Source: Desulfosporosinus sp. (GTDB taxonomy: Bacteria; Campylobacterota; Campylobacteria; Campylobacterales; Arcobacteraceae). From it: a stretch of DNA of 55,696 bases. The stretch covers positions 1-55,696 of the forward strand of contig DYPS01000005.1 in assembly GCA_020719775.1 (NCBI GenBank), read 5' to 3'. Under the pieces are notes generated by a model. It did not search any database and was not told where the DNA came from. It saw only the letters and a list, made by a program, of their open reading frames with translations. Both the position numbers and the translations under genes were made by a program. Of the stretch, positions 90-55,536 are shown one piece after another (the stretch's first letter is position 1; every line of letters begins with the position of its first letter).

Positions 90-2086
90 TCAGGTGCCTT
101 TCAGATAAGGATAGACAAACTTGCGTTAGAAGAGGACTGAAATATGCAAATAGTGCACTGCATCTCTCATCGACCCTGATAGACTGGTTGGATTTTTCAA
201 ACGCATCAATTACCAATATTTCCAAGCTTAGTTTATATTTCCTTAAGCCAAGTGCATACTCATCAATTAGTGATAAAACACAGTTTCATAATCCACATTT
301 TATACTGTTTCTGTTCGAGGTTTGCAATAAAGAACTTGGGTTGTTGCACCAGGTAATTGTGTGACCTGATGTTGAATTAGATCAATATATGGTTTTACTT
401 AGAATGCTGATTTTCCAAGTGCTAGCTAGGCTTCGACCATGTAGTGCAGGATGTTAAGGCGATTTCTGGAGTCTAGTTTTTTGTCTTGAAGAGATAGTAA
501 ACCTATTTTGATTACTTTTCTGTATAACTGTAAACCTAGACTCACATAACAGATGAGGGCTAAAGTGCTATGTTTGAACTGGAAACTATCATTTTTTAAT
601 CTCATTATCATTGTTTAGAGTTCATCTTCATGGATGTTGTAGTATTTCGTCAAATTCTTAAGTTAAGATAGGGAAGGGATTGGTGAATTTTAAATGCAAT
701 AGAGGCAATTTGTTAAAGAATTTAGAGCTGACTGAAGTAGAGATTTTTTTTGTTATTAGGAGGTTTGTGATTCATGGTAAAATTGTAAAATGGATTGGGC
801 AATACGATACCAAAATTTATAATTTTTAGACATTTGATTGCTCTTCTTAATGCTTTAGAAATACTGGTAGCTCTATTTGGGACGAGATTGCAGCAAAGTT
901 AATGCTTGATTATAAGTAATGGATTATATATGATTCCCATAATTCAAAGAAAACAAATGCAAATCCTTATCCTCAACTCCTGTGCAGGCCTTCCCTAAAA
1001 GTGCCTTTGCTTTCGAGAAGTAAGCTAAAGCAACAGTCGACTTCCCATAAACAAAATGCACAAGACCGGTATTACTTGTAGCGAAGGCATTGAGTATATT
1101 AGTTATAATTTTAGTGGTTGGCATCTGTTCAAATTCTTCGACTATATTCACAAAATTCATAAGACTGAGACAGCGCTGATAATTACGGGCATATAGTTCC
1201 TTTTGAGCCTATAGGAATCGACTGATCATGATTACATTGATTTCGTAGTATTTGTTGATAGTATTTTTTCTGCGTTTTACTCTTCCTAAAAGTTACTATC
1301 TGATCTTTTCTTAGTCTTCGGCAGGACCTAGACAGAGTGGTGGTGCTCCTAGTTGCATTAAAGCTTGACTTGTATACACTCTACTCATGAAAACAAATTA
1401 TTCACGAGCGACAGCAAAGGTCTTTCCATGCTAATGGAGAATGATTGATATCCATTGTTGTGATTGGTTGCGCAGCTCTACAGGTTTAAGTAGGTAATAT
1501 CGATAGATTTGCAACACTTCGAATGAATTTTTAGCAAGCGCGTTGAGTTCCTGAATGACTGATGTGTTACTAAAAGTAGGAGAAATATGCGACTCTGCAT
1601 GAATTCGATCAGACAGTCACGATTGCGGTAGACGCTATAAAGTACGACTAATGCATTGTCACGTTTGCCTTGAAGTATGAGTAGTACAGCGATGTTAAGT
1701 TTAATCATGCATTAGGTTTGTCCTTCGATGCGTGAGGGATCGCGTTTAAGTTTGCGGGCGATGATGTCGTTGAGTTTGCGAAGACAGTTTAAAGAAGATA
1801 GTTGGCATCTGTTTGAGAGATACTCACAAATGGCAAGATTAGGTTCATAGGAATCAATATTGGTAGGGTTTTGAAGAAGGGAGCTACAGAGCTGTATTTG
1901 TACCTTTGAGCTTATTTGTATTTGCCCGCATTGAAATTTTGGTATGCTTGCTACATTCACGATAATTATAAGGATGTATAATTCATAAACTCAAAATCAT
2001 CCAAACCTGCAGAATTAATAAAGCAATAACTACGATTGCCAAATCGAAGGATAGTTTTGGTAACTAATTGAAGAAGTATGAGGCAT
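90..2086 (-). CDS. CNOT10: CNOT10-like TPR subunit of the CCR4-NOT complex
   Basis: Likely scaffold subunit of the CCR4-NOT deadenylase, which shortens poly(A) tails. Read with TGA as the only stop, the frame runs from about 1,950 to a TGA at 90-92. It aligns in order with human CNOT10: an N-terminal NLAICEYLSN segment, then LNIAVLLILQGKRDNALVVL (human YNQAVILYHLRQYTEAISV), then NTGLVHFVYGKSTVALAYFSK (human [22 protein letters not shown]), and a C-terminal helical repeat with LAEGNINEAWKYW. A 20-nt intron at 1,551-1,570 restores the frame. The first exon is not resolved: ATG 2,086 is the best start but needs another intron near 1,947-2,006. Length is about 630 residues. The stop lies 40 bp from the telomere, so the 3' UTR must be tiny. 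The family call is sound; the 5' end is uncertain. Confidence 0.75.
1551..1570 (-). other. 20-nt intron (CNOT10-like gene)
   Basis: Sense GTAACACATCAGTCATTCAG. Removal joins RIFLLLL to ELNALAKNSFEVL and carries the TPR frame into the downstream exon that stays open to 90. Confidence 0.85.
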
Positions 2087-2121
2087 GTACAAAATTAATC
2101 AAATCATTATAAAACTGTGTT

Positions 2122-3491
2122 TCATCGAAGAGAAGTGGCGTATTTGCTTTAAAAACCTCTGGCACTTTATTTTTTCCCACTAATTCCATTTACTCTGCTC
2201 ATATTGGACAGATGTAGTCGATTTTCTTTTTTTAATCCAACAATGCTCATTCCATGACTGGTATTAAGACTTTTATATTGGCTCGAACTGACACTTGAAG
2301 TTTTTTCTTTGCTGATGGACCGAAGTGGAGCAATTTATAGTTTATTGACTCCATTGAGATTGATACTTTTTAAGACACTATCATATTCTTCATCATTGTT
2401 GATACTTTGATAGGAAAGTTTTGGCTGAATTGGATTTTATTAATCTTAAACCATTTTAATTGAGCCATTAATTGAAATTTAATCTCTAATATTTTGTATG
2501 TATTTCTTTGCTTAGATCAATGAAAAACGCTATTTGGGATCTACTTTGGAAAGCTTTTCTATGAGAGTCGTGAGTGATTGAGGGTAAATATTTCTAATTT
2601 ATTTTAAATCCGTTCTGAACTGTTTTTAATCAAAAGATAGACTGAAATCACTAGTAGATTGATTTGTGTAATAGCGCCGAGGCGAGTTGAAAACCATGGA
2701 CTCCATTGCTATCATTCCAATTCCAAAAACATCCATTTTTTAAAAGCTAACATCAACCAATTACTGCGCCTTCTTTTTAAAAAAAGGCAGGCACTCTGGA
2801 GAAATGGGGAGAAACTTATGTATATCTCTAGAATCACTGCCGATCATGCGATAGTACACAAAATGTTTATGATCTAGATAAAAACAAATAATACTGGGTG
2901 TGAGATGATACAGATATACTTTTATATACCCTTCAGGAGATAGGAAAATATTTTTAGCCAAAAATATTCCGAAGTACAAACCAAGTTCTAGCTTAATGCA
3001 TATCTACATTGCAAATACAGTGCCAGATCAATGAGACTATTTAGGACATACCACACTTATCCTGTGGTGAAACGTATATCATTAGTTTTTCTTTGATCGA
3101 TGATTTGTTCCAAATTAATCGCATAATAATTGACATAGCTTTCGATGGAAATCTGTTTGATGCAGATATTTGATCCTACATTAAAAATGTATATACTTGT
3201 GCAAATGTTGACTGAATGTATTTTGGCAACATTTTTATGATCGATATGCGAGACTATACCTTTGGCCATTTGTGAGTACTATTGATATTTGGGGTTATCT
3301 GGGGCGAAGATACGCACGTATTTCATTACGATTTAGTACGGTTATGTTTTGAATCGGTATATTTTGAATCTGCCCAGCGCCAGCATTTAGTTGTTATTTT
3401 AACCGTCTTCTATCGGGATTAAACTGTTAAGCAGGTCGCATTAGTTGGAGAAGGAATTGTCAGTGGTGATCCAGTCTTAGGAGTTACCCAT
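2122..3491 (-). CDS. Protein-kinase-fold pseudokinase
   Basis: A 449-residue protein with a kinase fold but without catalytic residues. Visible in order: N-terminal MGNSEDW; an N-lobe with the VAIK-type lysine kept (QIVMKYV); an E-helix NSLIDLALYL; a catalytic loop where HRD is replaced by FGI, with exact spacing to the retained KN (YFGIFLAKNIFLSPEGYIKV); LYH in place of DFG; SPECL in place of APE; the F-helix DVFGIGMIAMESM; and a C-lobe IEKLSKVDPKERFS. The tail is Ser/Lys-rich and ends at TGA 2,122-2,124. One 20-nt intron (2,988-3,007) sits just before the catalytic loop. MGN could allow N-myristoylation, but the residue at position 6 is Asp, so that is weak. A role as a scaffold or allosteric partner is inferred only from the missing residues. 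Confidence 0.85.
2988..3007 (-). other. 20-nt intron (pseudokinase gene)
   Basis: Sense GTAGATATGCATTAAGCTAG. Removal joins LALYL to LGLYFGIFLAKNIFL, giving the normal kinase spacing between helix E and the catalytic loop. Confidence 0.9.
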
Positions 3492-3652: not shown

Positions 3653-6600
3653 TCAGATATGCTATTTGATTTGTTGGGCTGCGCTGTCTGGATATACAAT
3701 GCCTTCTGCGAGTTTATTGGAGGAAGGAATTGTCGGATTTGAGGCTACAATTTAAACCTATTCCACCATATTTGTTTGATCTCGAAGTAATCTGCCCAGT
3801 AGATACCTGAAAGCGTAGAAAAGTGTGGCTGCAGCTAGAACGAAGGGTAGCAGCATCCATCCTAAAAATATTAGTAAACTATTGGTAAACCAATATTTAT
3901 ACTTGACCACAACTGCTTCTTTAAATTACAAGCCGACAATTGGCACTTCAATAGGATTATAAAGTATAGTCAATATTTTAATGGCGTTGGGGATTTTCTT
4001 ATCTGGACTGATTATTTAAATTTCAACTGATGCCTAAACGTTCACATATATTTTTTATGTATTGTTGGCTCCTATTATTTTTTTGATCTGGGAGTTCTAA
4101 ATATTAATAGAAATACCTCTATTGTTATGATTGGGTTATCTTTGGAATAGCCTTCAATTGCTGGTTCTTCAATTGCGCAGCGACTGTATCTGAACAGACT
4201 GTCTTGATTGGCCGAGGCATAAGCCCAATAGTTAATCTTCTTTACAGCGATATCATTCTCTACATTGGTGTCAAGATAAGGGGGAGAAACTTTGATTTAT
4301 ATACCATTTTATTGTATTTGATAATGTACTTCATAATTGGTGGCATCGAGTCTATCATAAGGGTTGATATTCCCATAATTGTAATAGTTGATTAAATATT
4401 CGAGTTAGTTCGTTGGCACTTTATTTGAAATCTTTAGGAAATATGATCCGAATATGTCTTAGACGCTGAAGACATAGTGTCCTCCGTAATTAGGTCGTTT
4501 AAGTTCGACTGAGCTGGTCATTTTATCTAAAGTTGTATTCATATCTTTATAATCTTTAGATGCTAGAACATTTAGATCTCCTTTGCAGTTGAATATCTAT
4601 ACCACCATGTTGTTGTTGTCAGTCCAGAGTTGGAAAATACCTTACGAGTTGAAGAAATGGTTGCTGACTGGGCTGATGTGGGTTAGGGAATTTTTAAGCA
4701 GAAGCATGGTGATATCAACATCAACATTGGTGTTAATTGTAATATAGTAAGTGCCTTTAATGTTCTTTAGATTTGTGACATAGGTATTGTCTGCTTTGGT
4801 TGATTTGATAAATAAGTCGTTATATGCGACTAGCCCTCCACTTGCGAGTTCGCCAGTGAGGTTGAAAGTTAGGATGGCTTAATCTGAGCCTGCTTTTTCA
4901 ATCACATCAGTCATTAGAGTCAGTGGTTTCGTGATGTCTTGACTGTTGATGAATTCAATAACAGTTGGCATAAGCTTGTAAATGCTGATGGTTGTTGGTA
5001 GTCCTTCGAAAATTCTTTAAGAATTATGAATTCTATCGACTTTGATATAGTATTCGGCTTATTCTATTACTTGAACTTTGATTTTGTATTCTGTTCGAAG
5101 AGAATGGAATTATACTTTTTAGCTTTATTTGTAATTCATGGCCTTGACAGAAAAAACTCTTTTTTTCGAAATTTCTTCATTGAAAACTTTAGTTCCATCA
5201 GGGGATGTGATCAGCACACTAATTGACCCAGAGATCATATTGAAAGTAATGTTGAAATCAGTTAGAGAATAGAATACATAACTTTCAGAACTGAGCTAAG
5301 TTCTAGGGAGAAGCCACTCTTTAAACATGTGGTTTACTGTGAGTGGCACTGCATCATGAATGCGAATAAAAACAATTTCTCCAACGAACATAGGATTGGC
5401 TAACAGATGAATATAGTAAAAGCATTCTGAACAGAAATTAGCTTAATCGCTGCTCGAAATAACAAAATCTCCATCTACTTTATCTATAATTGGAAAGCTT
5501 TTATAATCTGTAGCTAGAACTTCTGCGAGAGTGATGTTGTTTGATTTAATGGGCATTACATAGATATCTGCTGATCCTGCACTGATCATTTGTATTATTT
5601 TAAATGAAGCAGGATTTTGATGGTAGTAGAGAAAACCTAGACTTTGCCCATTTTACAGCTTAACATCATAAGGGTTTGAGAGACGGACGTTACGAACTGC
5701 TTGAGTGCTACTCGTATAGCTGATTTGATATGTACATTTTTAAATATCTCCTCGTACGAATATCTTTTATATTTTATCACTTTTCTTGAATTTTAAACTA
5801 TTTCCCAGTTGTTTGCCATTGACTACAGTCCCATTTTTAAGAGCAGAAGTGATGGTGGCGCATACTGATGAGCCTTTGCCATCAGAATTCATGTTTCTAA
5901 TTGAGACAATTGCATCTTCTGGATCAATAATATAGGTATATATTTATCCTTTTTCCACAAATCCTATTTTGGAATCACCCAATTCTAAAGTTGTTTCTTC
6001 TTGGCTTAATTAAATTTAATAGTAAATGCTTTAAAGCTCAACTCTTTATTATTATGCATTTATTGAATCGGCGTAAACTGATAGGATGAAGTAACAATCG
6101 AGATCTTTTGAACAGTATTTTTTAATGTACTATGAACCGATTGTTATTATCGATGTTCCGGATTTGCCCAGAGTTGTTGTGTACAGATTATCACGAAGAT
6201 CGTCTTTCTTTAATCTATCAGCTTATTGTATATATTTGGGGTATATACTCTCATCGCTGGCATGTCGACTAAGGAACGCATCTTTGGTTACGAATTTACC
6301 AGCCAGGAAATAAGAAAATCTGAGAGATTTGGTTGTAAAGAATATTTAAATGGATTCGGTTGAATAGACACGATAATAATAATTTTTGGGATCTCCGTTT
6401 TCGATATTGGGAGTATTGATTTTTTAGGTAATTCCATCAAAAAGTGCGATTTCAGCATCTTCCTCTTCCATAATAAAGTTGAAGTAATTAGTCTTGTTTG
6501 CATCACTTGTAAATTAGATTCTAATTGGACAGGTGCTTACAAATCCTTCTCTTTTCAAACCCAGAGGACAGACGTTATTCATATCAGCCAAGGTAATATC

Positions 6601-12474: not shown

Positions 12475-15400
12475 ATGAAAGAATTAGTTATTAATTACTA
12501 CTTCTTTGCCTTATTACTAATTTTTGGGCCCATTGTAATATCCCAACAAGTTTCCTCAAATTATTTCACATCAGGTACTCTTCATTGTAGTTAGATCAGG
12601 TCACTCTTTGGCACGGTAATACGATTGTTCCCCATCAATCCATCGTACCCTCCTATCAATTTACTTACACTATTCAACAAGCCCCTTCTCAGATAAATAA
12701 CATCCAAGCAGCCCTTACCGGCCTAAGTATTAGTAACGGCAACACTATTAATTTTTTAGTAAGCATTCTTTATGTTCCTTCTGCGAATGGAACCTTCATA
12801 ATCGATTTCAATCCCATGAATACATCAATTTATTATTCTATATCTTTTTCATTGATTGCCTTGACTGCACTTCCTAATAACTTCATTCACTCTCATTTGT
12901 AAAGTAAGTCGTTTATTATTACTTAGATTTAAATATATTGAATCTTAATAATATTGCAAGACCGGTTGGGTCAAATAGTTAAAGCTTTACAATTACATCA
13001 CCTTTACAGTTCACTCATCTTGCATTTGAAGTTCGAGTATTTATCAACTGCTTTCATGTGGTTTACGGATCTGGAGAAGTAGGGATATCTACAAATGGTC
13101 AAGGTGTTCCTACTTTAAATGCTTTTACATTTACTTTTGTGATTGGAGTGAATCCTGGTGTGGTTGTGAATGCTTGCTATGTTGTTGTGCTTATTGCTGA
13201 TATTACACAACTTCATGCTCAGCGGCACATGTATTTTGTTGCTGACAATTTCCAAATTTCAGATAATTATTTTATAAACCCAAATATTGCTCTAAGCACT
13301 CATACATCATCAAATTTCGGCATTTCCCCTTTATTTGGTCCAATTTTCAGCCGTAACTGCACTATTGCCCTTTATAATATTCATTTTGTAGCTGATATAT
13401 CAATAAAAACATTATTGTACGATTATAATTCAGCATTTGGTTTTATTAATGTTCAATCGATTGGAGGAGGTGGATTATTAGCCTATTATCAAACTTTCTG
13501 TGTTATAGACTGCACATAAACTGCTTTTTATTACTCTGTGACTAACAAATGTTAATTCTGTTCCAATTACATAACTTACTGTGAAACTTGCCTCAACGAA
13601 AATATATGCACAAATTGCGGAATTAACACATTCTTTGATCCACTCTATCGACTATGTCACTGTGTAATCGGCATCCGAGTTATAGGAGGATGTACAGACA
13701 TCGTAGGATGCACTTCTATCAACCCTTCAAATAAATGTTTACACTGTTCAACAGGTTATACCCTATCTTCAAACAATAGATCATGCCTGTGTTCAACTGG
13801 TTACACGATGGTAACAGGAATATGTATAAATGTGTTGGGATGTATTGCAGCTGTAAATTTACATAATTCAACTCGTTGTTTGACATGTAATCAGTCTATG
13901 AACATGATGATGGATTTTAATAGATCTAATTGTGTTTGTAGGGATGGTTATAGTTTTAAAAATGGAATGTGTGTAACTATTTGTGGGAATGGGTTTTTGT
14001 TTTTGCAGGAGCAGTGTGATGATGGAAATAATCAGGATGGAGACGGGTGTTCTTCTCTTTGTGAGATTGAGACTCATTATGAGTGTGTCAATAGTAATTC
14101 TGGATCTTTATCGGTTTGTTCCTATAAAAGCGAAGATGCAACTATTTCTTTGATATAAGTATATCGAGATAATCAATAAAATGCTGGGTATTTCGTGTTC
14201 CAAATAGTGCCTGCTATCTTAAATTTCAACAAAATGGATTTTACCTCGGCTGTCACATTTGGCTGCGCTTCCAACTTTACACAGCCTGAAGTTTATTACA
14301 AGGATGGAATATTGAAAATTAAAATTATATTTCTTCAGGACATTTAAGATAAACTGGCTAATGTCACCATTAACTTCAATCAGACTATCTTCAAGCATTC
14401 GCCAATTTCTGACATTTTTATAATTAAATCAATGAACTCTCCTCTTCGTATTTTCAAAAAATTTCCATAATATGAATTTTTCAAATCTTTTTTCACTGGT
14501 ATATCTTTTGTGGCTTTACTCCTCTTCTTTTTAGGCTCCTTGGCTCATAAAATGATTGGCATTGAGACTATTCACGTATTCCAGATGCTATTCTTTCTTT
14601 GCATATACTAAGTTTGCTATGCTGATTTATTTTTAAGTTCTGTTCAAACTCTCAGGTATACATCAAACTACTCTGATATATTTTTTGACTAGCTGAAAGG
14701 TATGGATGAAAGTGGAATATACTAAAGTTTGCGATTTGCCTTTACTTTTATTCAAAATTACTATGTTGTAGGAAGTGCCTAACTTATAGTGTTCATTTTG
14801 CTACTCACCAACTTCATCTACTATAAGTTGAAATCTGATAAATAGGCAAGTTAGACGACTTAATAATAGATTAAACAGATGAACAGGTCATACAAAATCA
14901 GAAGGGACATTATGACTTCAGTTCTAATGGTGCCTTTGGTTCTTGGATACTTCTATCAATGTTTATTTGGAGTGTAGGCTCAAAATTTTAGAAAATTGAG
15001 TAATAAATAGCATTTTGTTTACATTGTAAATTCTCTGTTGTTAGTAGGCTTTGTTTTTCTGTCTGCATTCTATTTGATCAACTAAATTGTTGCTAATTTA
15101 AAGAACTCTGGTCTAAACAAACATTATTAAATAAAATAGAGATACATTTTAATATACATTTTCAATTTTTTAGTGAACCTTATGATTCTAAATATTTCCT
15201 AGTTCATACAATGGGATATCATTATTTTGCTAGTTTGGAATATTCTTTATTTCGCAGTGCTGATTATCTACAAACCCTATGTTCATAACTTACACAATTT
15301 CAGTATTGCCTTCAATAACTTTGTTGTTATTTACTGGATGGGTGTGCTTCTTTACCAAGATTTATCTAAAAATGGATTAAGTGAGGATCAAAAATTTATT

Positions 15401-41617: not shown

Positions 41618-42612
41618 TCATGCCATATCCAAATTCTACCCCAGCAATTATTTATTCTATTATTTTTGCCAATACTATTTGTTCTTCATTATTTTGTCCA
41701 GCAACGGTTTGCATTCACTCTGCAGCTGAGTTAATGATCTGAATAATGGTAGAATCATATGGTCTAGGAAGGATATATTTGATCTGATAAACTCAAGATT
41801 TGTTTCAATTCGCTCGTAACTGATTGGTAGACCCTACTTCTACTCCTTTTGTCGCTGAGTTATCAACCATCTACCTGAGTTTAGAACTAAATATATAGCC
41901 TTTTGGTCCACTTCACGCTCAGCTAGATGTCCTTTGTTGTGTTGTTGAGATCAGCCACATGGAGCAGAAAGCAGTTTGCAGTAAGTAAATGCGGTTGTTC
42001 TTGAATTTCTAACTATTTTAACTAGGAAAGTCTATCTGCTTTTTCAATAAGCCAACCATGATAGAAGTTATCAGTCTTCATAATCATTTCTGTCATTGCC
42101 TCTACCTATGTGGATGGTATTTCTAGTTAATATTCTCTTAGCAATCTTCTCAAATTGCTAGCATGCATAAATTCAAGTGGAGATTCAGACTAATCAGCAA
42201 GTTGATGTTTAGCATTTTTATAGTAAGCATTGGTGAATCCAGAATGTCCTGAATCATGTGCATAGGCAGCAAGTAGCATATATATCCTTTGATGTTCGTT
42301 GATGTTCAGTTTGATCTGCCACCCATATTGAGTGAGATACTGATCGAGATTCTATTATCATAAAGGATATACTGTCATCACATCGAAAGCATGTGTTAAG
42401 TTATGATAGGGTACTGGGTGATAGAGATTGTTGATTGCTTGTATAAAATTTAGGATATGTTGAGGTTTTTTTTATGGCCAGAGGGTGTGTTTAATGATGA
42501 GTTGGAAGAGATATTGTTATGGGTGGGTTTGGTAGGTGTTGTAGATGGGGTTGATTAGTTAAAGGTTGAGGTGGAGGTGGGTTTGAGGGGGTTGGGGTTG
42601 TTCAGTTTGCAT
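41618..42612 (-). CDS. 3',5'-cyclic nucleotide phosphodiesterase (class I)
   Basis: A 317-residue PDE of near catalytic-domain size. Metal-site motifs are in order: PVPYHNLTHAFDV, LLAAYAHDSGHSGFTNAYY, SPLEFMHA, then the second metal block LLHVADLNNTTK followed by LSVKW and GLPISYERIE. It hydrolyses cAMP or cGMP; specificity cannot be judged, and no GAF, PAS or membrane segment is attached. The N-terminal 40 residues are Pro/Gln/Leu-rich. Two introns (21 nt at 42,352; 20 nt at 41,855). It lies between two chitin synthases on the same strand with 100 and 175 bp spacers, so it is an independent gene. Confidence 0.95.
41855..41874 (-). other. 20-nt intron (PDE gene)
   Basis: Sense GTAGATGGTTGATAACTCAG, containing an in-frame TGA if retained. 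Removal joins LYIEFETQ to RQKEEKEGLPIS. Confidence 0.92.
42352..42372 (-). other. 21-nt intron (PDE gene)
   Basis: Begins GTATATCC, ends TAATAG. It is a codon multiple but contains an in-frame TGA. Removal joins HAFDVMT to NLDQYLTQYGW. Confidence 0.9.
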
Positions 42613-42787
42613 TTATTATTTAAATTATAAATTTATTCGATTTGGTTTTGATTGTAATTTGGGAATGAAGGAATTCAATGTGGGATCGAGTTTGATTTGA
42701 TGATAGAAATATGGAGATTATTTTTAATAGTTTTGATAATTTTATTGATTTTAAATAAAGCCAATGCTAATAATTACATAACAATTA

Positions 42788-45282
42788 TCACAAAATATTT
42801 TGCTTTCTATAACTCTTTTTTTGCCTATTTATTTTTTTCTCTTATACAGCTTTAATATGATTTGCGTATTCTCCATTCAAGCCAACCCATAAAGCTTTCA
42901 CCTTTTCCAACCTTCCTGGATACAATGGTTTTTTACAGCAATTAAAATGTTACGTAAAAATCCACTTAAACTGATGTATCAATGCCAAAACAACTTTTAT
43001 GAGCATATACAGCGCACTATACCATCCAATAATTATTAAAATAATTCTTCTATTTTAATTGACTCCTGTCGTTGAATTGGGAATAACTGAATCTACGTAA
43101 ATCAAAATGTAAGCTAGCAGTGAGTTGTAGAATAACCTATATTATTAATGATGTACCATGCTGCTACAAATTTTATTTTTTAGTTTTAGTATTTTTTGCC
43201 TCCTCCGTGGCCACTTGCTCCTTTTGTTCCCCAAGAGACGTCATCGACGTTGCAGAAGGCGTGGATGACCATAGTTTGAGTGTAGGCGCCTTGATAGCTG
43301 ATATAGCTGATTTGATCACAGATAAGTTTCCATACAAATTAAGGATGAGTGATGAGATGAATTAGAAGAATGAAGAAATATAAGCCGAGGTTGATGAGTA
43401 TCATCACAAGAATACTCATTTGTGAGAAACTTGTCCAATCCACTCCATTATTATTCAAATCTAGATAAACAGCCACAATGTTATAGAAGACCAGACCGAC
43501 TAAACCCCAAGTATACAAACCCAAGACAACCGAGATATGCTGGGCATATTTTGTCCAAATACCACCCATCAATGACCCACCAACTGCCATCAGAATTATC
43601 AAAACATAGATAATCGATATTACACGAGCGATGATGAACACATATGAAACAGTTAAATCGATTTGTTATATTGTGCAAAGTAAAATATAGAAGGTGAGAC
43701 TTGGTGAGATGTAAGCGGTGATGGTGGAAAGCATTGACATGAGCATGGCTAAATTTAGAAGAATATATTTGTCAAAAGCTCCATGTTTGGATTATGCGCA
43801 ATTGAAATAATAACTGTCCCAAACATAGAGAAATGCAAACATACTACTGTTTATCCATCTTCTGCGTTGTTTCATTAAATCTTAATGGTTGTTCATCGGA
43901 TCAGTTTTTGCGATGGCGTTGGGAAGATAGCGAAGATAATATTTTTAGTTTGGCTGGCAGTATATGCCTAGACTTAGGATTCTGTCTTCGGCTAAATACA
44001 TGTTGGCTTATCGGTAATCTTTTTCTTCGATGTTGGGATTTAGTAACATTTTGAAGTAGCTGTGTTCTAGTAAATTTGGCTAATATCGATCTGATTTGAT
44101 TAGGGCTTTGTAGCGATATGCTGACCAAGCTCCAGGTAGTACATGAAGGAAACCTAGAGAACTTTCAGCATTTTTATCAATAAAATGAGAGATAATGTAT
44201 TCGTATTATTGGGCCTTTGCAATTGAAAAGAAGCTTTACCTAATGAATTAAAGGCAACAGTTTTATTTTTAATTGCTGTCTCCTCCTTCTTAGGATTAAA
44301 AGGTGCTATCAACTGACATCAAACCAGTTACTCCTCCAACGTCTTTGTTGTCGAAGCCTCGAAGTAGGTTCACTATTCCTTATTCAGATGGCTAAGTTCC
44401 AACATCAAGTAATACTATAAATTCAGGTTGGAGATATCTGCAAAATCCTTCGAAAAACCATAGATGTGAGGACAGTTTGGTTCCATTGAGATGTTTGAAG
44501 CAGCTGAATAATCTTAAATATTTATTTTATTTAAGGTCATCGACTTTTTATGAGATATTTTATTTTTTGACTTTGGTCATACTTGGTTTCCATAGATTTT
44601 GATAGAGCAGGGACACATTTTTTTAAATTGATGGAGGAAAATCCCTGTTTTCTCCAACCATATTACCAAGTTCTCTCCTATTAAAATTTTATATTTAGTC
44701 GAGGATCGTATTGATTCTCTCTTCCAAATCGCATTTATCTTTGCCTTAAGCTTGATCTAGAGCTTTATAGAACTAAACCATCGAATTCTTTCCTTTCGCA
44801 TAGGTCCTTTTCTTCCTATCCTCCACAAGTTTCAGAATACCATCCTGCATCATGACAACTCCCACTTCTTCAGCCGCAATACCTTGTTCCTCTAATTTTT
44901 CCAAATTGCTATAAATTCCATTCAGAGTAGTGTTCATTGCAATTCTGCTCTCATTGTACATGCAGACGCAGATTAGAACTTTAATTCTGAGTGGAGCCTG
45001 TTTGTTGACATTGTCAATTTTGTTCATGCAGTTGAGCTGATATATTAATCCATCTTAGATAGATAGTTCTTTTAAGTAATTTTGGGAAGGGGCTGGTTGA
45101 TCATAAAATTGTGAAATATTGGTGGCTTCAATTTATTTGGTGTAGGCACACATGGGGATACTGCGATTATTGACTCTATCATTATAGACTCGAGGAGAGA
45201 AGTAGATATTGAGAGTTGGATAGACATAATGAGCATGTGATTCACTTGCTTATTCTTATTTTCGTAGGGAATTGGATGACAT
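42788..45282 (-). CDS. Chitin synthase (copy B)
   Basis: An 823-residue chitin synthase, shorter at both ends than copy A. Motifs: [46 protein letters not shown], the Q-x-x-E-Y block [48 protein letters not shown], then membrane helices with [10 protein letters not shown] and a final hydrophobic pair before TGA 42,788. A 23-nt intron (43,114) joins AAWYIINNI to [13 protein letters not shown] 45,282 gives [11 protein letters not shown]; an upstream start is possible. It is a tandem paralog of copy A but well diverged, as QRRRW/QRKRW and VDDVSW/IDDISW show. Chitin in ciliates is known from cyst walls and loricae. Confidence 0.96.
43114..43136 (-). other. 23-nt intron (chitin synthase B)
   Basis: Begins GTTATTCT, ends CTGCTAG. 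Without removal the protein would end at a nearby TGA before the last transmembrane segments. Confidence 0.88.
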
Positions 45283-46069: not shown

Positions 46070-46667
46070 GTCGGAATAGGAATAAATGGGCCAGCTGGCC
46101 CTTGTGCTCGGAGATTTTCACATCCCACTTCGATGTGCTTAAGTCCCAGCCAAATATAAAGAAATGATCACCCCCAACAAAGTTAGCGCTGTTTTTTGTA
46201 CTGGGAACATTGGATCAAGGGAAGGATTTGATTGGGTCAAGTCTCTCTCATCCACATTTCATGTAGTAAAAGGAGATTACGAAGACTAAGCATTAGCAGA
46301 TTTTCCTTAAGAAAAAGTATTTTTTTGTGTTATTTAGGTATTTTAATTCAATGGGGTCAAAATCGGTATGATTCACGGTCATCAGATCATTCCTTGGGCT
46401 GACGAGTAGGCTCTTGAGAACAAGGCGAAAGAAATGGGAGTTCACTTATTGATAACGGGCCATAGTCATGACCTGAAATCATCTCATCATAATGGAGTTT
46501 ACTTTATTAATCCTGGATCAATAACTGGTGCATACAGTGCTTTAAAAATAAACGCAGTGCCATCATTTATGATATTGTAGTTCAAAAGCACGGATATAGT
46601 AATTTATGAATATTCTTTGGTGGATGGGGAGTTGAAATGTGTGGATGGGAAAATACCTAGAGTGTGA
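46068..46667 (+). CDS. VPS29: VPS29 retromer subunit
   Basis: A 192-residue metallophosphoesterase-fold subunit of retromer, which recycles cargo from endosomes. It follows human VPS29 closely: LALVLGDFHIPLRC, VPAKYKEM, VSAVFCTGNIGSREGFDWVK, HVVKGDYED, IGMIHGHQIIPW, LLITGHSHD, VYFINPGSITGAYSAL. The fold's metal-ligand positions are largely kept, although VPS29 acts as a scaffold. A 21-nt intron (46,317-46,337) sits before FEFNGVKIGM. ATG 46,068 gives an acidic leader MSEEEEMGQ; the second ATG (46,086) gives a start closer to the human protein and is equally likely. Confidence 0.96.
46317..46337 (+). other. 21-nt intron (VPS29)
   Basis: Begins GTATTTTT, ends TATTTAG. It is a codon multiple without an in-frame TGA, so retention would only insert seven residues. 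It is called from the alignment gap against VPS29. Confidence 0.75.
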
Positions 46668-46862: not shown

Positions 46863-47248
46863 ATGGCATCCAAAAAGAACACCAATAAGTATCTGATCAT
46901 TAACATAGCAACAAAGAAATCGTAAATGATTCATTTCTGCTGGGACAGCCAATGTACGATCTCACGCCCCCTCCTCCATTACCTTACCCTAAACTGTTCC
47001 ATTATAGTCTTGATCCAGCTAGACACTACCATCACCGTTTTACTACTTCATTCATCGCATCACTTAAACCTTTGCTGATTGACTGTGAAGTTGGTGTCCC
47101 TGTGGACTAGTTAATTCTCTTCACAAAGTAGTATAATAACTCAAATGTAATTTTGTCCTAAAAGTAGGGTATTTTAGATGAGTAGGACGAGATGCTGATT
47201 AAATAGAGTTTGATGGATATAAAAGGTAGTCTACGCAAGGACCAATGA
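46863..47248 (+). CDS. PAF1: Short PAF1-like protein (RNA polymerase II elongation factor subunit)
   Basis: A 121-residue protein matching only the conserved N-terminal core of PAF1: PPPPLPYPKLFHYSLDPARH (PAF1 pattern P-K-L-L-P-F-D-P-x-R), LLIDCEVGVPVDELILF (human LLTEPDLGVTIDLINP) and ILDEEDEMLIKESL (human LLDPADEKLLEE). PAF1 is a scaffold of the Paf1 complex that travels with Pol II. Typical PAF1 proteins exceed 400 residues, so the rest is missing or lies elsewhere; the next gene converges 41 bp away, leaving no room. A 20-nt intron (46,889) follows the eighth codon. The glutamates written TAG here support TAR = Glu. Confidence 0.7.
46889..46908 (+). other. 20-nt intron (PAF1-like gene)
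   Basis: Sense GTATCTGATCATTAACATAG. Removal joins MASKKNTN to NKEIVNDSFLLG. Confidence 0.88.
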
Positions 47249-47289: not shown

Positions 47290-49661
47290 TCACTCTAAAG
47301 GAATTTATTGCACCTTTGTTTTTATGAAGGCATGTTTACGTTTTTAGATGTACTAATCGTAGTAATCTTCCTTTACATCAATCTATTCCTATAAAATATG
47401 AAAAAATAGAACAGGTGATGTGTTTTTTGGAAATTTCAGCATTTTTAGTCCCTAGTTGAATGTGCACATTTTCAGTTATATTTCGTAGTATTTTATTAAA
47501 GCTATTCCAACTTTGAACAGGTAAATCTAGCCTTGGAGAACGAAGTTGTCCCAAATACGCATTAAAAATTAGTTATGAAAGCAACTGGCGAAAACTGAGA
47601 GAAACCATGTCACTAAAAACATACGAGTCTATAAACGAATGCCTTTGAAATGTGACTTGACTGTTGGGGCATTGATTTACATTAAATTTTAGAAAAGTTG
47701 AATTCTTAATTAAATTTAACTTTTATCTCCACGGTAAAATGATAGAAAATGATTAGAGTGAATGAAATTGACTAAAGCAGATATTGCTTGAGTGTTGCTG
47801 TCTTTGGGTTTGAAATCTTTGAATACTTCTAGGAAAACTTGACTAAGTAAAAGTAAGTCCTTCACTGGAGGCAAGTCAGGTCTCATCGTTATCAATGTCT
47901 ATGCAGTCTATATGACTTATTTTCCGGTATCGAATGAGACTTATCTTAGTTCAGGAATTGATTGCTTTCTTTTTTTAACCTATTATATTATCATTGGAGT
48001 CAATGCTAAATTATTTCCAATTATGAGAGGCCATAGAGTTTTACGGCTTGAAGGAGGAAGTCCATTTTTCCATAGAGTTTAAAGCAGATTGGTTTTAATG
48101 TTGAGTCCACTGTTACTAGTTTTTTAATTGAGTCCATCTTTTTTATTTCCTTAGCTTGACCAACATGAGCAAATAGCTTCTAATCCTCTTGCTATGTATC
48201 CCTTCTCCTTGGGTTTCCTATGTTTATAGTCCCAATGTCTGTCCCAAAATGGGAAAATATCATTATTCCACATATCCTCAATAATCTAGCTATTTATTGT
48301 GCTATTATATTTATCCTCAAGTTCCTATTTCTTTTTGTCCCTTCTTTGAATAAGAATAGCCCTTAGATAATTGATCCATTTGGCTCTTTACTTAGTTGTT
48401 CTTGCTTTGAGGTCTAGTGTTCTGTTTGTAGTTGTTATTGTGAAGCAGAGAGAGTCAAATTATTATGGGACTTTATTTTTGCGCATTACTGTTGAGCCTA
48501 TTCCTAGAGTGAGGTCGGTTATATCTTTAATGTAGATGAAACGAGGATTATCTCCTTTTGGTGGATCGCAAATCCAGTTTATCTTAGTTTCGTCCTCACT
48601 TATGTAAACTTTTCTTTGTACAAATTTTGTTGTATTTCTACAAATTTTCAAAAAAATATCACCCTTTATTAATTATTTGCTGATTTCAATAGCTTCACCA
48701 ATATTGGAAACAGCTAAATCTTTCAGCCTCCCATAAATAGTAGCAAAGTAATCCGTCTAAGTTTCAAACTTTTCCTTGGTGATTCTTTAAAAAATATGAG
48801 TTAAATAATCTTAATTAATTGATGGACAGGGTCTGCGAGTATTGGTTACAAACTATTCACAAGTCATCTTTTTTTCCTGTTTGGGATTATGAGCATCAGT
48901 TGATAGCATAATGATGGCATAGGCCAATGGAAATAATTAATCTGCGTTTTAATATTGTAGACTATTGGCTTAAAAAAATGCTAATGCAAACTACCAGATT
49001 ACTCTTTAAATTTGTTGTGCTTCTCCTGGCAATCTGAATTTACATAGTAAAATTCTTAAAGCTTTATCGAACTATTGATTATTGAAATTTAGTAATTTGC
49101 AATAGGAGTGTAAGATTTGCAATACTTTTTTATCATTTTTCCCAAAGTATTCCCCAAGAATAGCTTTATCAATTCCTTCCATTTTGATGATATACTAAGC
49201 GATGGCATCAGGAGTGTCCTAATGTATAAATCCCTTGGTGACATAATCAGAAATGGCATGTTCTGGTTTTTTATTGAACATTAAAATGAATAGCTATGAT
49301 TACTCATTAAATTTTTAATTTAAATTTATGTTGTTCAGTTCGTCCATTAGCTTACCATCCTTTTGGTCTTAGTTTAACTTTACCCTGTCCAAATTTAAAG
49401 GAATTGAATTTCTATTTTGCTATAGATAGTTTTAAACCTTCAATTTGAACTATGCTCCCCTCTTCTCTGTTTCAGTACTCAAAACTGAGTGTCCAGGTTG
49501 TTATATTGATTACAGATAATCTTATGCATCGCTGAGTTCCTATAAAACTTCTTCTTCAAACTAAATTAGTTCTGGAGGATCAGGTGGTTATATTTCTACT
49601 TTGATTTCTGAATGAATGAAGGTATACCTTATCTCTTAATGGCAGATTTATTCTTAATCAT
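47290..49661 (-). CDS. Sec7-PH-TBC fusion (ArfGEF joined to RabGAP)
   Basis: A 783-residue protein combining an Arf activator and a Rab inactivator. Domain order: an acidic leader; a Sec7 domain (LFILMFNKKPEHAISDYV, ILGEYFGKN, and CKFRLPGEAQ with the catalytic glutamic finger, then PLAYAIIMLSTDAHNP); a PH-like domain (RKVYISEDETKINW through AKWINYLRAIL); and a TBC domain (LWKNGLPPSSRKTLWPLIIGN to MRIWDNFVLQGEIYLF). The Gln finger is present (NTQAIS), but the arginine finger I-x-x-D-x-x-R reads VSFDTGK, so GAP activity is doubtful. A 20-nt intron (49,608) follows the start exon. Sec7-TBC fusions are reported in ciliates and other protists. Confidence 0.92.
49608..49627 (-). other. 20-nt intron (Sec7-PH-TBC gene)
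   Basis: Sense GTATACCTTCATTCATTCAG. Removal joins MIKNKSAIKRE to EIKVEIEPPDPPEL. Confidence 0.9.
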
Positions 49662-49786: not shown

Positions 49787-52125
49787 TCAATGTTATTCAT
49801 ATTCATCATCGCTGTTTTCCTCTTTTATTGCCTGGTTGTCGTTTAGCTGTCGTTAGTTCTTTAGCTTTCGTTGAAGTCTCTGCTGCTTCATTCTTCTCCT
49901 TTCGTGCATTTCAGCATTGCTTAAAGTTTTTTTATGATTGACATCTTCAATTCTCTTTGTCAATCTTCTTTTTTTTTCCTAATCATAGCCTTAAATGCGA
50001 TCTGTAATTTTCTTCATTTGATACAATACTTTTTTTATAATTATAGTTGATACTTTTTTACGAGTATTATCTTTATGGCTCATTTATAACTAACTTCTCA
50101 ACAATAAATCTGCTTTTTCAATGCTTTTAACACTCTCTATCAATTATTATATTGCAAACTGCAATTGAGCCTGCAAAAAATAAGCATTGACAATTTAAAT
50201 TGTGGTTTGGTGAGATTAAGGAAGATTGCTGAGAATGGCCAGTGAGTACTTCAAAGCCTCTTTTGAAAATGATATTAGTTTATTATCCTTCAGACTGATT
50301 CTAAATTTGGTTTAGTAAAACAACGCTTTGAGATAATAAAATTTAGCCTGATATCTTTTGCCAGAGTATAGAGTCTCATACATGTTGACATCTTCGACCA
50401 TTTTACTGATGATGTCCAAGGTATTTTAAGTCTATTCAAATTTAAGCTATTCGATATATACTAATGTCTTTGTGAGTAGCGATTCAGTTTGAATTTATAG
50501 TGACAAATTGTTCGAGCGTGAAACAATAAAGAGTAGTTCAGATAGTGTCTTATTTCTTTAATTTTTCAAATTGATGTTTTATGCATTGTCCGGATCCATA
50601 ATAATTTGATGATGATAGAGATAGACCGTTTCAATTTGTAGTTTGATGCTGAATTCTTAATTATTTCCTTTATAGGATTTGTATAGATCCTTTGTTTCGA
50701 TTAGTACGTTTTTGTGAGTTGTATAAAAGTAGGTTATTCGGTATTATTCAATAAGTTCGAGTCTTAAGCTTATTTATTATTTGTAGTAATCGTTGTTGGC
50801 AATGCCGATTTTCTAGTAATAATCGCCTATTTTATGCAATAAGGCAACGTTTTTTTATTTGTCGTAATCTCCAAATTAATTTTACATTTTGCTAATTAAA
50901 ATTTTGTTGAATTCTTCCTTTTTGTGAAGAAGCACTAATGTATTAATATGCCCCTCCTCAATCCAAGCCTAGTACTATTTTTTCATATAAATCTTCATTA
51001 AATCTTCGCTGATTTTCCTATCGTCAGCAAAAGCATTCTATTTTTATTCAGTTTTAAATCTGCCAATAATCGTATCTAATTTTTCTTCCAAATTATACAA
51101 ATTCACATTTTCCTGACCTAGTTTATCTAAAATTGAATTAAATTCAGGATCAACGCATATGAGATTGGTTTCAGTTGTTGCCAAATTATAAATACTCAAT
51201 AGAACTCTCTTCAAACAGGCAAAGTCATATTTATGAGGATCGTAACTTTTCAATTCTGTTTTAGATGAAATTGCTTGAATTAATGGTTCGCATGCAAATA
51301 AATTTACTCCTCTTACGCTTATGAGGTCATCATCTTTTTAATTGTTTTTATTTTTGCCAAATTTCCTGGCTGATTCTAAGTTAATGAATTGATAAGGAAT
51401 ATTTTTATTAGAAGGCGTATAAAATATTTTATTAAGACGTATATCCCTATGACATATATCTTGTTCTTCCAACTGTCTATATCCCTTGATTAGCATTTTC
51501 CAAAGCAAAGCCACTTCGCAATTATTCCATCTATAAAAATGTGCTAATTTCCGATATTACAAAATTTAGAATAAAGTATTTTCATAATATTTGAACATCA
51601 TAACAAGAGCGTTGATTTTTCCACGACTCATTATGAAATAGTCCACAAGTGGAGATTATGATAATTAGTTGTACAGGGAAATTTAATATAGTCCGTTTTT
51701 TAGAGTGCTGTCATTATAGGATGTAAAACTGTAGACTTTCATTGTTAAGGAATGTGATTTGTTTGTTATTATGTGATGATAGACCTGTTTTTGGTCATTG
51801 TCGAAGACGTCTAAGATAGGACAGAGCATTAGATCTTTTAGTTAGAATTTTGTGCCATCGTAAAGTTAGAAATCTGCGACTGAGGACATGATGCGAATTT
51901 ATACGTTGACTGTGGTGTTATTTTTATCATTGGCAGGCATGATAAGCCTATAAATACTATCCTTTTTGGTTCTTAATTTTTATATTTCTCCAAATCTTGA
52001 GCCTTTTCTTTTGACTATCTTTATATCTTTTCCCAATATCTTTGATGGATCTTCATAGTTAACCTACATCTCAATATTCATACTGGGGTGAATGTTTCGG
52101 GAGGTACTCCGCATGTATTACCCAT
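49787..52125 (-). CDS. MGNTC kinase-like protein with helical repeats and a basic tail
   Basis: A 772-residue protein starting MGNTCGVPPETF (possible N-acylation). Residues about 30-350 resemble a protein kinase: a glycine-loop-like KRKGSRFGEIEKLRTKK, a catalytic loop CHRDIRLNKIFYTP that keeps HRD, but NLESAR where DFG should be, so the Mg-binding Asp is lost. Residues about 400-670 are a run of paired helices resembling TPR or SEL1 units (AFYYLKALFYQTKF; NAYFLQAQLQFAI). The last 100 residues are strongly basic (RLEDVNHKKTL, RRRMKQQRLQRKL), ending DDEYEEH. A 20-nt intron (52,064) follows codon 15. An apparent separate small ORF at its 3' end is in the same frame. Function unknown. Confidence 0.82.
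52064..52083 (-). other. 20-nt intron (MGNTC gene)
   Basis: Sense GTATGAATATTGAGATGTAG. Retention would place TGA right after PETFTPV; removal gives TFTPVNYEDPSKILG. Confidence 0.9.
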
Positions 52126-52168: not shown

Positions 52169-55100
52169 TCATTGATATTGCTATGATTATTCACGGTAAC
52201 TTTAAAATTATTGGTTGTATTAGTCTTCACTCCCTTAGAGCTATTACAGCAGTTTCATTACATCTTTCTTTTGTTTTTGCGGAGATTTGCGCTTTTATTG
52301 AACGTTTTGAATTTATCTTTTGTTGAGTTAGATTGAATCATCTTTTCTAGTAATGAAAGATTATAATTCAGAAAATTTCTATTACACTGAGCGATAATCT
52401 TTACTCTCATCAAATGATTTAACTTTGCACTACTTTGCTAATTTTCTAGCTTATTCAAGAGATTTTAGTTTTCCCTGCGGATGTAAAAGTTTAGAGGAAC
52501 TCGCTTTGATTTATTAATAGGGATTTGATTGAGGAATAGTGGCGACAGACCGAGGAGCAATAATAGTTGGGGGATTAAATTCTAATTAAGGTGATTTTTA
52601 TTTTTTTTATTTGCTTTTATTGTCTGCCAGTGATGAATTAATTACTTTGTTTTTATTTAAGTTTACACCAGATTCATACTGTGATTCATAGACATTAGAA
52701 TCGAATTTATGGGGTTCTCCATAGCTTTCAATTGATTAGTTCATGTTATAGCTTTTTGATATATCAGGGTTCATTTTGCTCCTCATAATGCTACTTTCTT
52801 TCTTTTTTCCTACAGATTTTCGTTTATTAATTGGCGGTTTACCTGTGTTGCTGCTTTCTTCAACTGACTCAACTGTTTGTGAATATCTCATCATATCTTC
52901 TTGCATTCTTTGCTTTTAACTTTCTCTCATTTTTAGCTGTGATTGAGACTATGACGCTTTTGATGGATTCACAGCTTGTAATTTGGCAAATCCTTAAATT
53001 GAAGCCCCAACTTTAGGAGTTCTTACTTTTGCAGGCTCATAATCACTCCTAATAGTTTCTAAGCTTTATTCATAATAATTATCACTTTTTTTGACTGGGG
53101 AAATCTAGTTATTCGAAAAGTAGTCTTTGCTATTGTTTTCATTGATTTTTGACTCTTTTATTTATGAATCTTTTATGGTTATATATTTGTTGTTTTCCTA
53201 GGTTTTTTATTTATCATATTTACTTAAGATATCGTTGTTCAATTTAATGAAATTTAATGCTTTAATTGGAGCTATATTTCCTTAATTTATTCTTTTTTAA
53301 TACTATTGAATGTAACTTGGGGTGACTTTTGATTCTTAGCGTATTCTGGGTTATGTTTGATACTCATCTTGTTCTAATATTTATTTTTTGCTTTTTGGGG
53401 AATAATTGCCGATTGGGGAATTCATTCTGGGTTATTTTTAATTAAAAGTCATTATATTTTAATCATTTGATGTTACTTTTTTCAAAAACGGCTTATCTTT
53501 TGAAAGCCTTTTAATTTTATGAGGAGAAGTTGATTTGATAGTGACATACTAGCTTTGAACTGGATTCATAATTGGATCAACCAACACTCTTCTGTCCTTT
53601 TCATAAGTCGCATTTTTATTCATTTTGTTTGCCAATTCAGTAAATCCTTTCTAAGATTGTAACTTTTTTAATTGAAGCAAATCTTATTCAAATCGATGTT
53701 TCAGCTATTCCTTAGCGTTTTTACTTCTAAAGTATGTGCTGGTTGAAGGAACTTCCAGAGATGATTGATTTGGGTCAATCATGACTTAGAAAGTATGAAA
53801 TCGTCTGACTTTGTATTTATATTTGAAAAATTGATCTAAGGCTGACTATTTTGATGTTTTTTATTATTTTGTATATTTTTTGTTAGTGGTGTTATTGATT
53901 GGTATTTTACTAGCAATTGCTGACAGACTTTTATCATAGTATTATGAATTATCAGACTATCCATAAGGCATTTGATTATTTAAACTTTAACCAGACACAG
54001 GAACAGCCTGTCTCTTCACATTTGACTATTTATCAAAATAGTCTTTATGCTGTTTCGCATCCGAGTAAAATTATTTTTGCTGAATATTTTGAATTGGTGG
54101 AATTTGCTGAGTCAAAAAATTAGTTTGTGTTTGAGATATTATCTTATTGAGGGCTTACTGATAAGCCTGACCTTGACTGTATTGAGTTTGATATGCTTCT
54201 TTTATTTATTTTATGCAAACATCAAATATTTTTTTCATCATTTACATATATTATCCAGAAACATTTTGAGGAGGAAAGGCTGGTGGCATACCATATCCTA
54301 CCATGCTGTTTGGAGGTAGAGTTCCATTGGCATAGTAGGGAGTTGGTTGTTGGACCATACTTGGCATAAACTGCGAATAGTTGATGCTTTCGTTGCGAAT
54401 GGGATAGCTGATATTTGGTTAATTTTTATTTTCTTAAACGTTGGGTTGTGATGCTATCTTTAGTTACTATTATTTTTTAATGGGAGAGTATTGAACTGGA
54501 GCAAACTATTTTTATGCTTTTGGAGCGTTGTCTTATTCAAGTTCAATGATGTCTCCTCCATAATTCTTTTAGAGATTGTTTAACTATCTCGTATATTCTT
54601 AATAAGTAACTTTTCCTTTTTTAAATTTACTTTTTAGTTCGATTATCTTTGATTTCACTAGTGTTTTATCAAAAGCGCTGTAGTTGCCCATTGATGGGAC
54701 TGGGGGTTTGCTACTGTTAGGGTCATGTCTTTTCATTACCAAAGGTTTAGCATCAATTTTTTTTTCTTCATTAAACTCATAGTGCTGTCCTTTGAATTAT
54801 TTTTCCTATTTAATTCTTTCTTATTTTTTTCTTAGTTGTTAAAATCTCTGCTCTTCCAGTTCCATTAAATATTTACGATTCATCTCTTCTTTTTTCTGTT
54901 TTTGCAGATCATCATCTTTTACAAAGGGATTAAAATTTGGATTGTAACTTTTTTAAATATCTGGAGATTTAGCTTTGAAGTTGTTATTGAGAGCTACTGG
55001 CTGATTGCCATTTTTACTATTATGTCTATCATTTTCCGGAACAAGAGTCGGCTGTTGCTGTTGTTTACCATAGCTTCTAACTTTATTATGATCATTGCTT

Positions 55101-55536
55101 GTGGGAAAGAGGCCTTAATGTTTTTGATTTTGCAGTTTGTTCTTCTGAAGTTATCTTTCATTTATGAAATGATTCTATCTTTGAGGCTGAGGGGATGGTT
55201 TATACTATTCTCGCCTTATTTCTTGGTATGGTATGTATTATTAAGCTTTTGGGTTTCGATAGGGGCTGAGTTATTTTGGTGGTGGTGCGACATATCTGTT
55301 TGGCACTTGTGAAGGATTGCTAATGAGTTAATTCATGATTTAATCGGCCAGTGACAAATTTTTATTGGTTGGTTTTTGGTTGTTCTTATCCTAATAAAAC
55401 TAAATGATGAATAGAGTACCTCTGCTTCGAGTTGCTTCATTTCCAGTTATTTTTTGTTACTTTCGATCTATTTGGTGTATTCTTGGTATAAGTTTTTCTT
55501 TTCTTATAGGGTTTTATCCCGATAGTGGTAGCTCAT
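52169..55536 (-). CDS. Long Glu/Gln/Lys/Pro-rich coiled-coil protein, start uncertain
   Basis: A single TGA-only frame from about 55,400 to TGA 52,169-52,171 encodes about 1,115 residues with no known domain. Order: an N-terminal coiled coil (TLEEKKNLYEEYTKEIESNK); a Pro/Asn/Tyr-rich stretch (PNRYVAPPPKELSPYR); a second charged coil (QKKEEMNRKYLMELEEQR); FKKGKVTYEEYTRELNNL; a Pro/Met/Tyr-rich stretch (PPNSMVGYGMPPAFPPQN); then a long basic, Ser/Lys/Glu-rich region. A 20-nt intron is at 55,400. ATG 55,536 (MSYHYRDKTL) is the last safe start; ATG 55,645 or an exon beyond the window may be the real one. Cytoskeletal or centrosomal proteins look similar, but no identity is claimed. Confidence 0.75.
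55400..55419 (-). other. 20-nt intron (terminal coiled-coil gene)
   Basis: Sense GTACTCTATTCATCATTTAG. Removal joins the N-terminal coil (KQLEAE) to FYEDKNNQKPTNK. Confidence 0.88.

Follow-up and report, generated by a model that had tools for sequence, protein, structure and literature searches.

Introns held almost to a single, very short length are already known from several eukaryotes, at 15-16, 16-17 and 18-21 nucleotides (nt), and the 20-nt lock described here extends that kind. The introns in question lie in a 55,696-nt contig of assembly GCA_020719775.1 (DYPS01000005.1; "the window" below means the whole of this stretch) and in further contigs of the same assembly that we attribute to a ciliate. 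In Stentor coeruleus 92.8% of introns measure 15 nt and 7.2% measure 16 nt, with an A mostly at positions 10 and 11 (PMC9505925). The focal ciliate resembles Stentor in having one dominant length, GT..AG ends, AT-rich introns and a putative branch A six bases from the 3' end, which leaves a 5-nt tail; it differs in having 20-nt introns with the A at 15 rather than introns of 15 or 16 nt with the A at 10 or 11. Introns of Blepharisma stoltei are predominantly 15 and 16 bp (PMC9942806), but this species has CCCTAACA telomeres and reads UGA as tryptophan, whereas the focal ciliate has CCCCAA telomeres and reads TAA and TAG as glutamine.

An extremely narrow length range is likewise reported for the mikrocytid Mikrocytos mackini, where 217 of 224 introns are 16 nt and seven are 17 nt (PMC10245619), but this parasite is a rhizarian whose spliceosome is reduced and whose predicted introns number 224 altogether, whereas here we estimate about 0.85 introns per gene model in a set locked at 20 nt. 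The same source gives 18-21 bp for chlorarachniophyte nucleomorph introns, a narrow range that includes 20, but one that belongs to a remnant endosymbiont nucleus and takes in lengths below 20 nt. Loxodes magnus also combines very short introns with a floor, those under 16 bp being negligible, the mode 17 and the mean 19.3 (PMC11441545); its distribution is broader and depleted in multiples of three, whereas in the focal ciliate 81% of the excess at 20-23 nt falls at one length and 21-nt introns are not fewer than 22-nt ones.

Paramecium and Nyctotherus introns are mostly well below 40 nt and bounded by GT..AG (PMC5014332, PMC12862383, PMC2633312), those of Nyctotherus having GTA..TAG ends and no branch motif found (PMC2633312), but their distributions are broader and centred on 23-25 nt. 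The focal set lacks the Paramecium-type features, namely a broad distribution at 24-25 nt and a depletion of multiples of three or in-frame stops. Longer modes are given for Colepidae (55-60 bp), Colpoda (mean 93 bp), Pseudourostyla (31 and 34 bp) and Chilodontopsis (36 bp; PMC10946202 among the sources). No ciliate is described as locked at 20 nt in the open-licence full-text literature that we searched, which is no claim that none is in print.

Intron length in the ciliate contigs

The window (contig C183) belongs to an assembly of 2.85 Mb and 228 contigs that is listed as a prokaryote. It opens with CCCCAA telomere repeats (1..50, + strand), which occur on further contigs of the assembly among the matches listed. 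Decoding TAA and TAG as glutamine opens long reading frames, the longest table-11 frame being only 200 amino acids, and the genes are eukaryotic: Spb1, two Piwi proteins, an IP3-receptor-like channel, a kinase, two chitin synthases and a Sec7/TBC protein. From 140 extracted stretches we chose, by their reading frames, a ciliate set of 69 contigs including the window (1.168 Mb); L128 was dropped from the first 60 loci as bacterial on its table-11 frames, and 23 of the next 80 were retained, the other 57 being bacterial, ambiguous (L139, L142, L151) or all N. CCCCAA stands at one or both fetched ends in 49 of the 69 contigs and at both in 20, counts that cover the fetched contig ends, some long contigs having ends outside the set. 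We read the 69 contigs as macronuclear chromosomes of a ciliate co-binned with a bacterium, its genome being represented only in part within the assembly.

A semi-Markov gene finder covering both strands, with TGA as the sole stop, GT..AG required and lengths of 10-100 nt equally likely, was run for three rounds on 46 contigs. Its calls numbered 231 at 20 nt and 5, 3, 15 and 5 at 19, 21, 22 and 23 nt. Among 15 boundary pairs the 20-nt peak was specific to GT..AG, the other 14 giving 3-27 calls at that length; the AT..AG control showed no such peak, with 10 calls at 20 nt and 42 at 17 nt. A second finder, with splice-site weights added and a flat prior over 14-45 nt, made 843 calls on the 69 contigs: 502 at 20 nt, 63 at 21, 55 at 22, 19 at 23 and between 2 and 14 at every other length from 14 to 45 nt. 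Above a background of 6.5 calls (the mean at 24-45 nt), the excess at 20-23 nt splits into 81%, 9%, 8% and 2%; its 613 calls over 719 gene models yield the density quoted above. Calls of the reversed model (802, 41 of them at 20 nt) and of the antisense model (629, with 35) spread over all lengths. At a gain of at least 6 nats, 341 of 413 calls are 20 nt, the rest being 22 nt (38), 21 nt (6), 23 nt (6), shorter (5) or longer (17), and ten of these non-20 calls have a 20-nt alternative within 3 nats.

The same length emerges without the gene finder. The motif GTA..TNAYNYAG, counted with no gene model, occurs 299 times at a spacing of 20 and 62 times at 21, over a background of 18-39 (mean 29.9) at 27 other spacings from 12 to 40; with GTC or GAT in place of GTA there is no spacing peak. 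Pfam kinase hits, which carry no knowledge of splice sites, were used where a neighbouring segment of the same domain was present (37 of 56 segments). These domains break at 21 places, with a frame shift of 2 mod 3 at 18 and of 1 at three, and 21 of the 23 introns called at the breaks are 20 nt, one 22 and one 23. Four of six mapped genes were aligned to solved structures; in their spliced products, the junctions of 11 20-nt introns and of one 21-nt intron are free of gaps. Three of these 20-nt junctions are in ATP synthase alpha (best match 6yny, which we take to be a Tetrahymena structure), three in Rab, which also has the 21-mer, and three in SEC11, where a single-residue gap lies 4-5 residues away from one; in CCT-beta two of three introns are gap-free and the third falls outside the alignment. 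With four kinds of evidence in agreement, a single sharp peak of predicted introns at 20 nt is confirmed at the level of DNA.

Could these segments be something other than introns, such as unexcised internal eliminated sequences, sequencing indels or pseudogenes? Their identity is read from DNA, and ciliate germline DNA is described as carrying short intragenic elements (PMC9942806). We nevertheless find this scarcely credible, in view of the sense-direction GT..AG calls (502 versus 35 antisense at 20 nt), the nearly fixed A at position 15, the telomere repeats on 49 of 69 contigs and the conserved products restored in the genes examined.

Intron anatomy and lengths other than 20 nt

Finders run without a branch-point term place an A at position 3 in 96-97% of 20-mers and, in sets of 231 and 294, at position 15 in 97% each; in a later run, also without this term, 469 of 474 20-mers have A15, that is, six bases from the 3' end. 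T is preferred at positions 13, 16 and 17 and C or T at 18, making the typical 20-mer GTA N11 A NN YAG. The initial annotation, drawn from the letters of the window, had described introns mostly beginning GTA and all ending AG, with little room for a separate branch site and pyrimidine tract; GTA..YAG holds genome-wide, and with five bases after the A at 15 a separate pyrimidine tract has no room. It had also proposed a length histogram and an aligned logo for locating the branch A; the called introns have a sharp 20-nt peak, and 97-99% of the 20-mers found without a branch term have an A at 15. From its position, A15 is likely the branch point.

In introns of 21 and 22 nt the A may take any place between position 15 and -6, a stretch that widens with length. 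An A falls within positions 15-16 in 61 of 62 21-mers, against 31 and 41 of 62 for the two preceding intervals (p=1e-10 versus the first), and within 15-17 in 48 of 49 22-mers, against 29 and 33 of 49 (p=2e-6). A model-free table of the distances of A from both ends has 235 cases at (15,-6) versus 17 expected and 40 at (16,-6) versus 14; an A at 14 is not enriched. The cells (11,-10), (12,-9) and (13,-8) are also raised, which we read as the other A's of the 20-mers.

A stop-free 21-nt intron keeps the frame open and is therefore overlooked by frame restoration, to which the frame-neutral lengths (18, 21 and 24 nt) are largely invisible; all six 21-mers of an extended run of the first type contain TGA. 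Inside called coding sequence, however, 37 21-mers score above 10 nats (antisense 3), compared with 14 left at 20 nt and 1-9 at each remaining length between 14 and 33 nt. On this pattern 21 nt is a real, if minor, class of predicted introns, and frame restoration, which the initial annotation had used, misses its stop-free members. The heterotrich lengths of 15 and 16 nt account for 11 and 7 of the 843 calls.

It had further been argued that 20 is not a multiple of three, such that retention shifts the frame. This argument is not needed, as 21-nt calls are as many as 22-nt ones (63, 55) and the 15-nt introns of Stentor are multiples of three. A rival explanation is that the length is selected through reading frame and nonsense-mediated decay, a retained 20-nt intron shifting the frame into an early stop. 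For a retained 20-mer the median distance to an in-frame TGA is 115.5 nt (TGA lies inside the intron in 27 of 432, and in-frame TGA in 4-9% of 20-mers per frame), so decay could act on unspliced RNA, and depletion of introns that are multiples of three is reported for Paramecium, Loxodes and others in the papers cited above. Yet frame leaves unexplained why introns are 20 and not 22 nt, as lengths of 22, 23 and 25 nt would shift it equally well, and with 21-nt calls not fewer than 22-nt calls and stop-free 21-mers in excess within coding frames, we regard this selection as improbable.

We also compared decoy GTA..ANNYAG motifs in coding sequence; relative to antisense, the sense direction has fewer of them at 20-23 nt than at 16-19 and 24-27 nt (Fisher p=1.7e-4), a depletion that we do not rely upon because called introns had been removed from the sense set. 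As a separate observation, the density of 20-nt introns is higher in the first fifth of genes, which holds 146 of 432 over the 69 contigs.

Length floor or length ruler

The sequence itself shows the peak, the near-fixed A, hardly any excess at lengths under 20 nt, the interval occupied by the A in 21- and 22-mers, and the restoration of frames in conserved proteins. The explanation we consider probable is that these are spliceosomal introns compacted onto a 20-nt floor that is set by two minimum distances. The branch A would lie no earlier than position 15, with at least 14 nt before it, and at -6 or further in, with at least 5 nt after it; the minima of 14 and 5 would add up, around the A, to 20 nt as the smallest well-spliced intron. 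Introns would have been shortened onto this floor, about four in five being exactly 20 nt and most others 21-23 nt, and the longer ones would keep their A inside the allowed interval. Two such minima would explain near-absence below 20 nt, a fixed A in 20-mers and freedom of the A in longer introns. The floor itself may be mechanical, which fits the five-base tail common to Stentor alongside a differing 5' arm (14 versus 9 nt), and compaction, by deletion bias or selection, may have placed the introns upon it.

Paralogues allow lengths to be compared at single positions. Of 32 intron pairs found at a common position, 19 are 20/20, often without related sequence, and the others are 20/22 (four), 20/23 (two), 22/22 (two), 21/22 (two) or of other kinds (three). 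The pairs cannot be treated as independent. Centrins supply all four of the 20/22 pairs, a single pair of genes with weak calls supplies both of the 20/23 pairs, and identical copies are present among the 20/20 pairs. Three centrin copies whose proteins are 98.7-99.4% identical have introns of 20, 20 and 22 nt at one position, with unrelated sequences. This bears on the idea of a recent burst of one mobile, introner-like 20-nt family, in which the length would be inherited and not constrained. A burst would account for narrow length and common ends, but the introns share little sequence beyond GTA, T13, A15 and YAG, the near-identical centrin copies have only these signals in common, and their intron position also occurs in a related ciliate contig (below); we hold a burst to be even less probable than selection on frame.

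This contig, L209:1-7298 (JAQTXT010000079.1), is the one relative found in a GTDB contig scan with centrin, to which its own centrin is 86% identical. It is capped by CCCCAA and belongs to a metagenome-assembled genome titled Rickettsiales bacterium isolate STC_2. Eight introns were called in it, of 20, 20, 22, 22, 22, 22, 23 and 25 nt, none of them below 20; seven lie in its centrin, RPN1 and Rab genes, where the spliced products are gap-free at the junctions against solved homologues. The share of 20-nt introns is 2 of 7 here versus 21 of 23 in the focal kinases (Fisher p=0.003), and the contig also has the centrin intron position. On this small sample, the related ciliate appears to have the same floor and no lock.

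The initial annotation had explained the sharp mode by a spliceosome with a length ruler, that is, one that measures the distance from donor to acceptor and prefers exactly 20 nt. The mode stands, the drop to 21 nt is up to nine-fold, and 19 of the 32 same-position pairs of diverged paralogues are 20/20, all of which a ruler would explain. A single ruler of total length is not required, however: introns of 21-23 nt occur, the A gains freedom of position with length in 21- and 22-mers, a single intron position in the centrin paralogues is occupied by 20 or 22 nt, and the related ciliate has alignment-supported introns of 22, 23 and 25 nt. We thus judge a ruler unlikely, though of the competing explanations it deserves the most weight.

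Several observations count against a floor of two minima, or against the evidence for it. The size of the drop from 20 to 21 nt makes a real preference for exactly 20 nt possible. Splicing of the 20-nt segments and the role of A15 are both deduced from sequence. In 23-mers an A falls within 15-18 in 16 of 16, against 14 of 16 for the preceding interval, which is not significant, and the three 22-nt arrangements show little excess in the model-free distance table. There are 7-14 calls at each length from 14 to 19 nt, compared with a mean of 6.5 at 24-45 nt; five of the 413 strong calls are 16-19 nt, three of these having a 20-nt alternative, and 18-mers are slightly in excess inside coding frames (9 above 10 nats, antisense 2), such that a few 18-nt introns may exist. 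The splice-site weights were trained on genome-wide 20-mers, and the control models call nearly as many introns as the true one, the 20-nt peak alone being specific to GT..AG. In the first run the total path score of AT..AG (32327) exceeded that of GT..AG (32228), a high score that we attribute to frequent boundary pairs spanning many breaks by chance. The alignment-checked genes, unlike the kinase set, were selected for carrying at least three 20-nt introns and so test exactness, not frequency, and the length switches between paralogues come from two gene families.

The window, the host assembly and implications

In the window, the weighted finder with its flat length prior recovered all six introns that had been given by coordinates (marked as named in Table 1), and 17 of its 33 calls are 20 nt, in line with the seventeen exact 20-nt introns first described. 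Other lengths (19, 21 and 23 nt, and some weak calls of further lengths) are present as well, but the set differs from the 19, 21, 21, 23 and 23 nt of the initial annotation. The first run, with GT..AG only, had found nine 20-nt introns here, three of them among the six. Four of the weighted 20-nt calls are weak (gain below 2 nats; 24039, 41855, 43137 and 52064), two of these being named ones; at 3.0 nats or more, 13 of 18 calls are 20 nt. For the ambiguous last entry, the 20-nt alternative (55400-55419) has an A at 15 and shares donor and frame effect with the 29-nt call.

Table 1. Introns called in the window, with strand, finder run and gain in nats
Feature	Position	Strand	Run	Gain
20-nt intron	1551..1570	-	weighted	3.4
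20-nt intron, position 15 not A	1884..1903	-	both	4.7
21-nt intron, frame-neutral	2874..2894	-	weighted	2.2
20-nt intron, named	2988..3007	-	both	3.6
20-nt intron	4097..4116	-	both	13.4
20-nt intron, named	12575..12594	+	weighted	4.3
23-nt intron	12904..12926	+	weighted	14.8
20-nt intron	22587..22606	-	weighted	5.0
20-nt intron, named	23621..23640	+	both	8.8
20-nt intron, weak	24039..24058	+	weighted	0.8
21-nt call, weak	24288-24308		weighted	
20-nt intron, IP3-receptor-like gene	24431..24450	+	both	9.5
20-nt intron, IP3-receptor-like gene	24625..24644	+	both	15.2
20-nt intron, named	32671..32690	+	both	21.7
19-nt intron, rare length	34818..34836	-	weighted	3.6
20-nt intron, chitin-synthase-like gene	39058..39077	-	both	13.3
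20-nt intron, named, weak	41855..41874	-	weighted	1.5
21-nt intron with TGA inside	42352..42372	-	weighted	10.1
20-nt intron, second chitin-synthase-like gene, weak	43137..43156	-	weighted	1.7
21-nt intron, frame-neutral	46317..46337	+	weighted	2.4
20-nt intron	46889..46908	+	weighted	3.0
20-nt intron, Sec7/TBC gene	49608..49627	-	both	3.9
20-nt intron, named, weak	52064..52083	-	weighted	0.9
Ambiguous intron, called 29 nt	55391..55419	-		5.4 for 29 nt, 3.3 for 20 nt

At window 15972-21076 two Piwi/PAZ genes lie side by side on one strand, and neither has a called intron. Two adjacent, diverged chitin-synthase-like genes (window 38243-45282) are 28% identical over 547 aligned columns and have no called intron position in common. 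Elsewhere in the set, L159:13434-17540 holds a tandem duplicate of a gene that we take for PEPCK, with 100% identical protein and identical introns; the copy is either a recent duplication or an assembly effect. Two 85-nt transfer RNA (tRNA) genes, L078:7532-7616 and L091:10673-10757, are read by ARAGORN with a two-base anticodon (ta).

Searches for the splicing machinery yielded no match to U2, U6 or LSM in the assembly, which holds a partial ciliate genome (150 of 273 U2 and 150 of 364 U6 candidates were scored), and Rfam models gave ten tRNAs and no small nuclear RNA on six locus sets totalling 842 kb, which says little of a partial genome. Centrin, scanned against 200 genomes around the host bacterium, matched in its own genome alone; the window Spb1 protein had no relative among genome contigs, and centrin, ATP synthase alpha and CCT-beta had none among viral contigs. 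The ADP/ATP translocase family, a hint of an intracellular bacterium, was not found in a search whose control likewise matched nowhere.

The host assembly is a prokaryote species representative scored as 100% complete and 0.32% contaminated, yet it contains at least 1.17 Mb of apparent ciliate macronuclear DNA, to which the contamination score is blind. In the assembly of the related contig, kinase hits read through many TAA and TAG codons, which suggests more ciliate contigs there. In both assemblies the ciliate may be the host and the bacterium its symbiont.

For annotation, these results mean that gene finders must admit 20-nt introns here and that 21-nt introns are nearly invisible without RNA. 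Where the lower size limit of introns lies for a spliceosome, and what sets it, is a structural question still open. A second locked type in ciliates, with the same 3' geometry as Stentor and a 5' arm longer by five bases, makes the two distances separable and each of them testable, and comparison with the related contig, whose introns are not locked, would allow the shift onto the floor to be studied between relatives. More broadly, ciliate intron length may be set by two minima, 5 nt from branch to 3' splice site as in Stentor and a lineage-specific distance from 5' splice site to branch, with the relative sharing the floor unlocked; we consider the case for and against this generalization evenly balanced. 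If it is true, the focal species would have pressed nearly its whole intron set onto the floor, and a relative with the same floor would not have done so.

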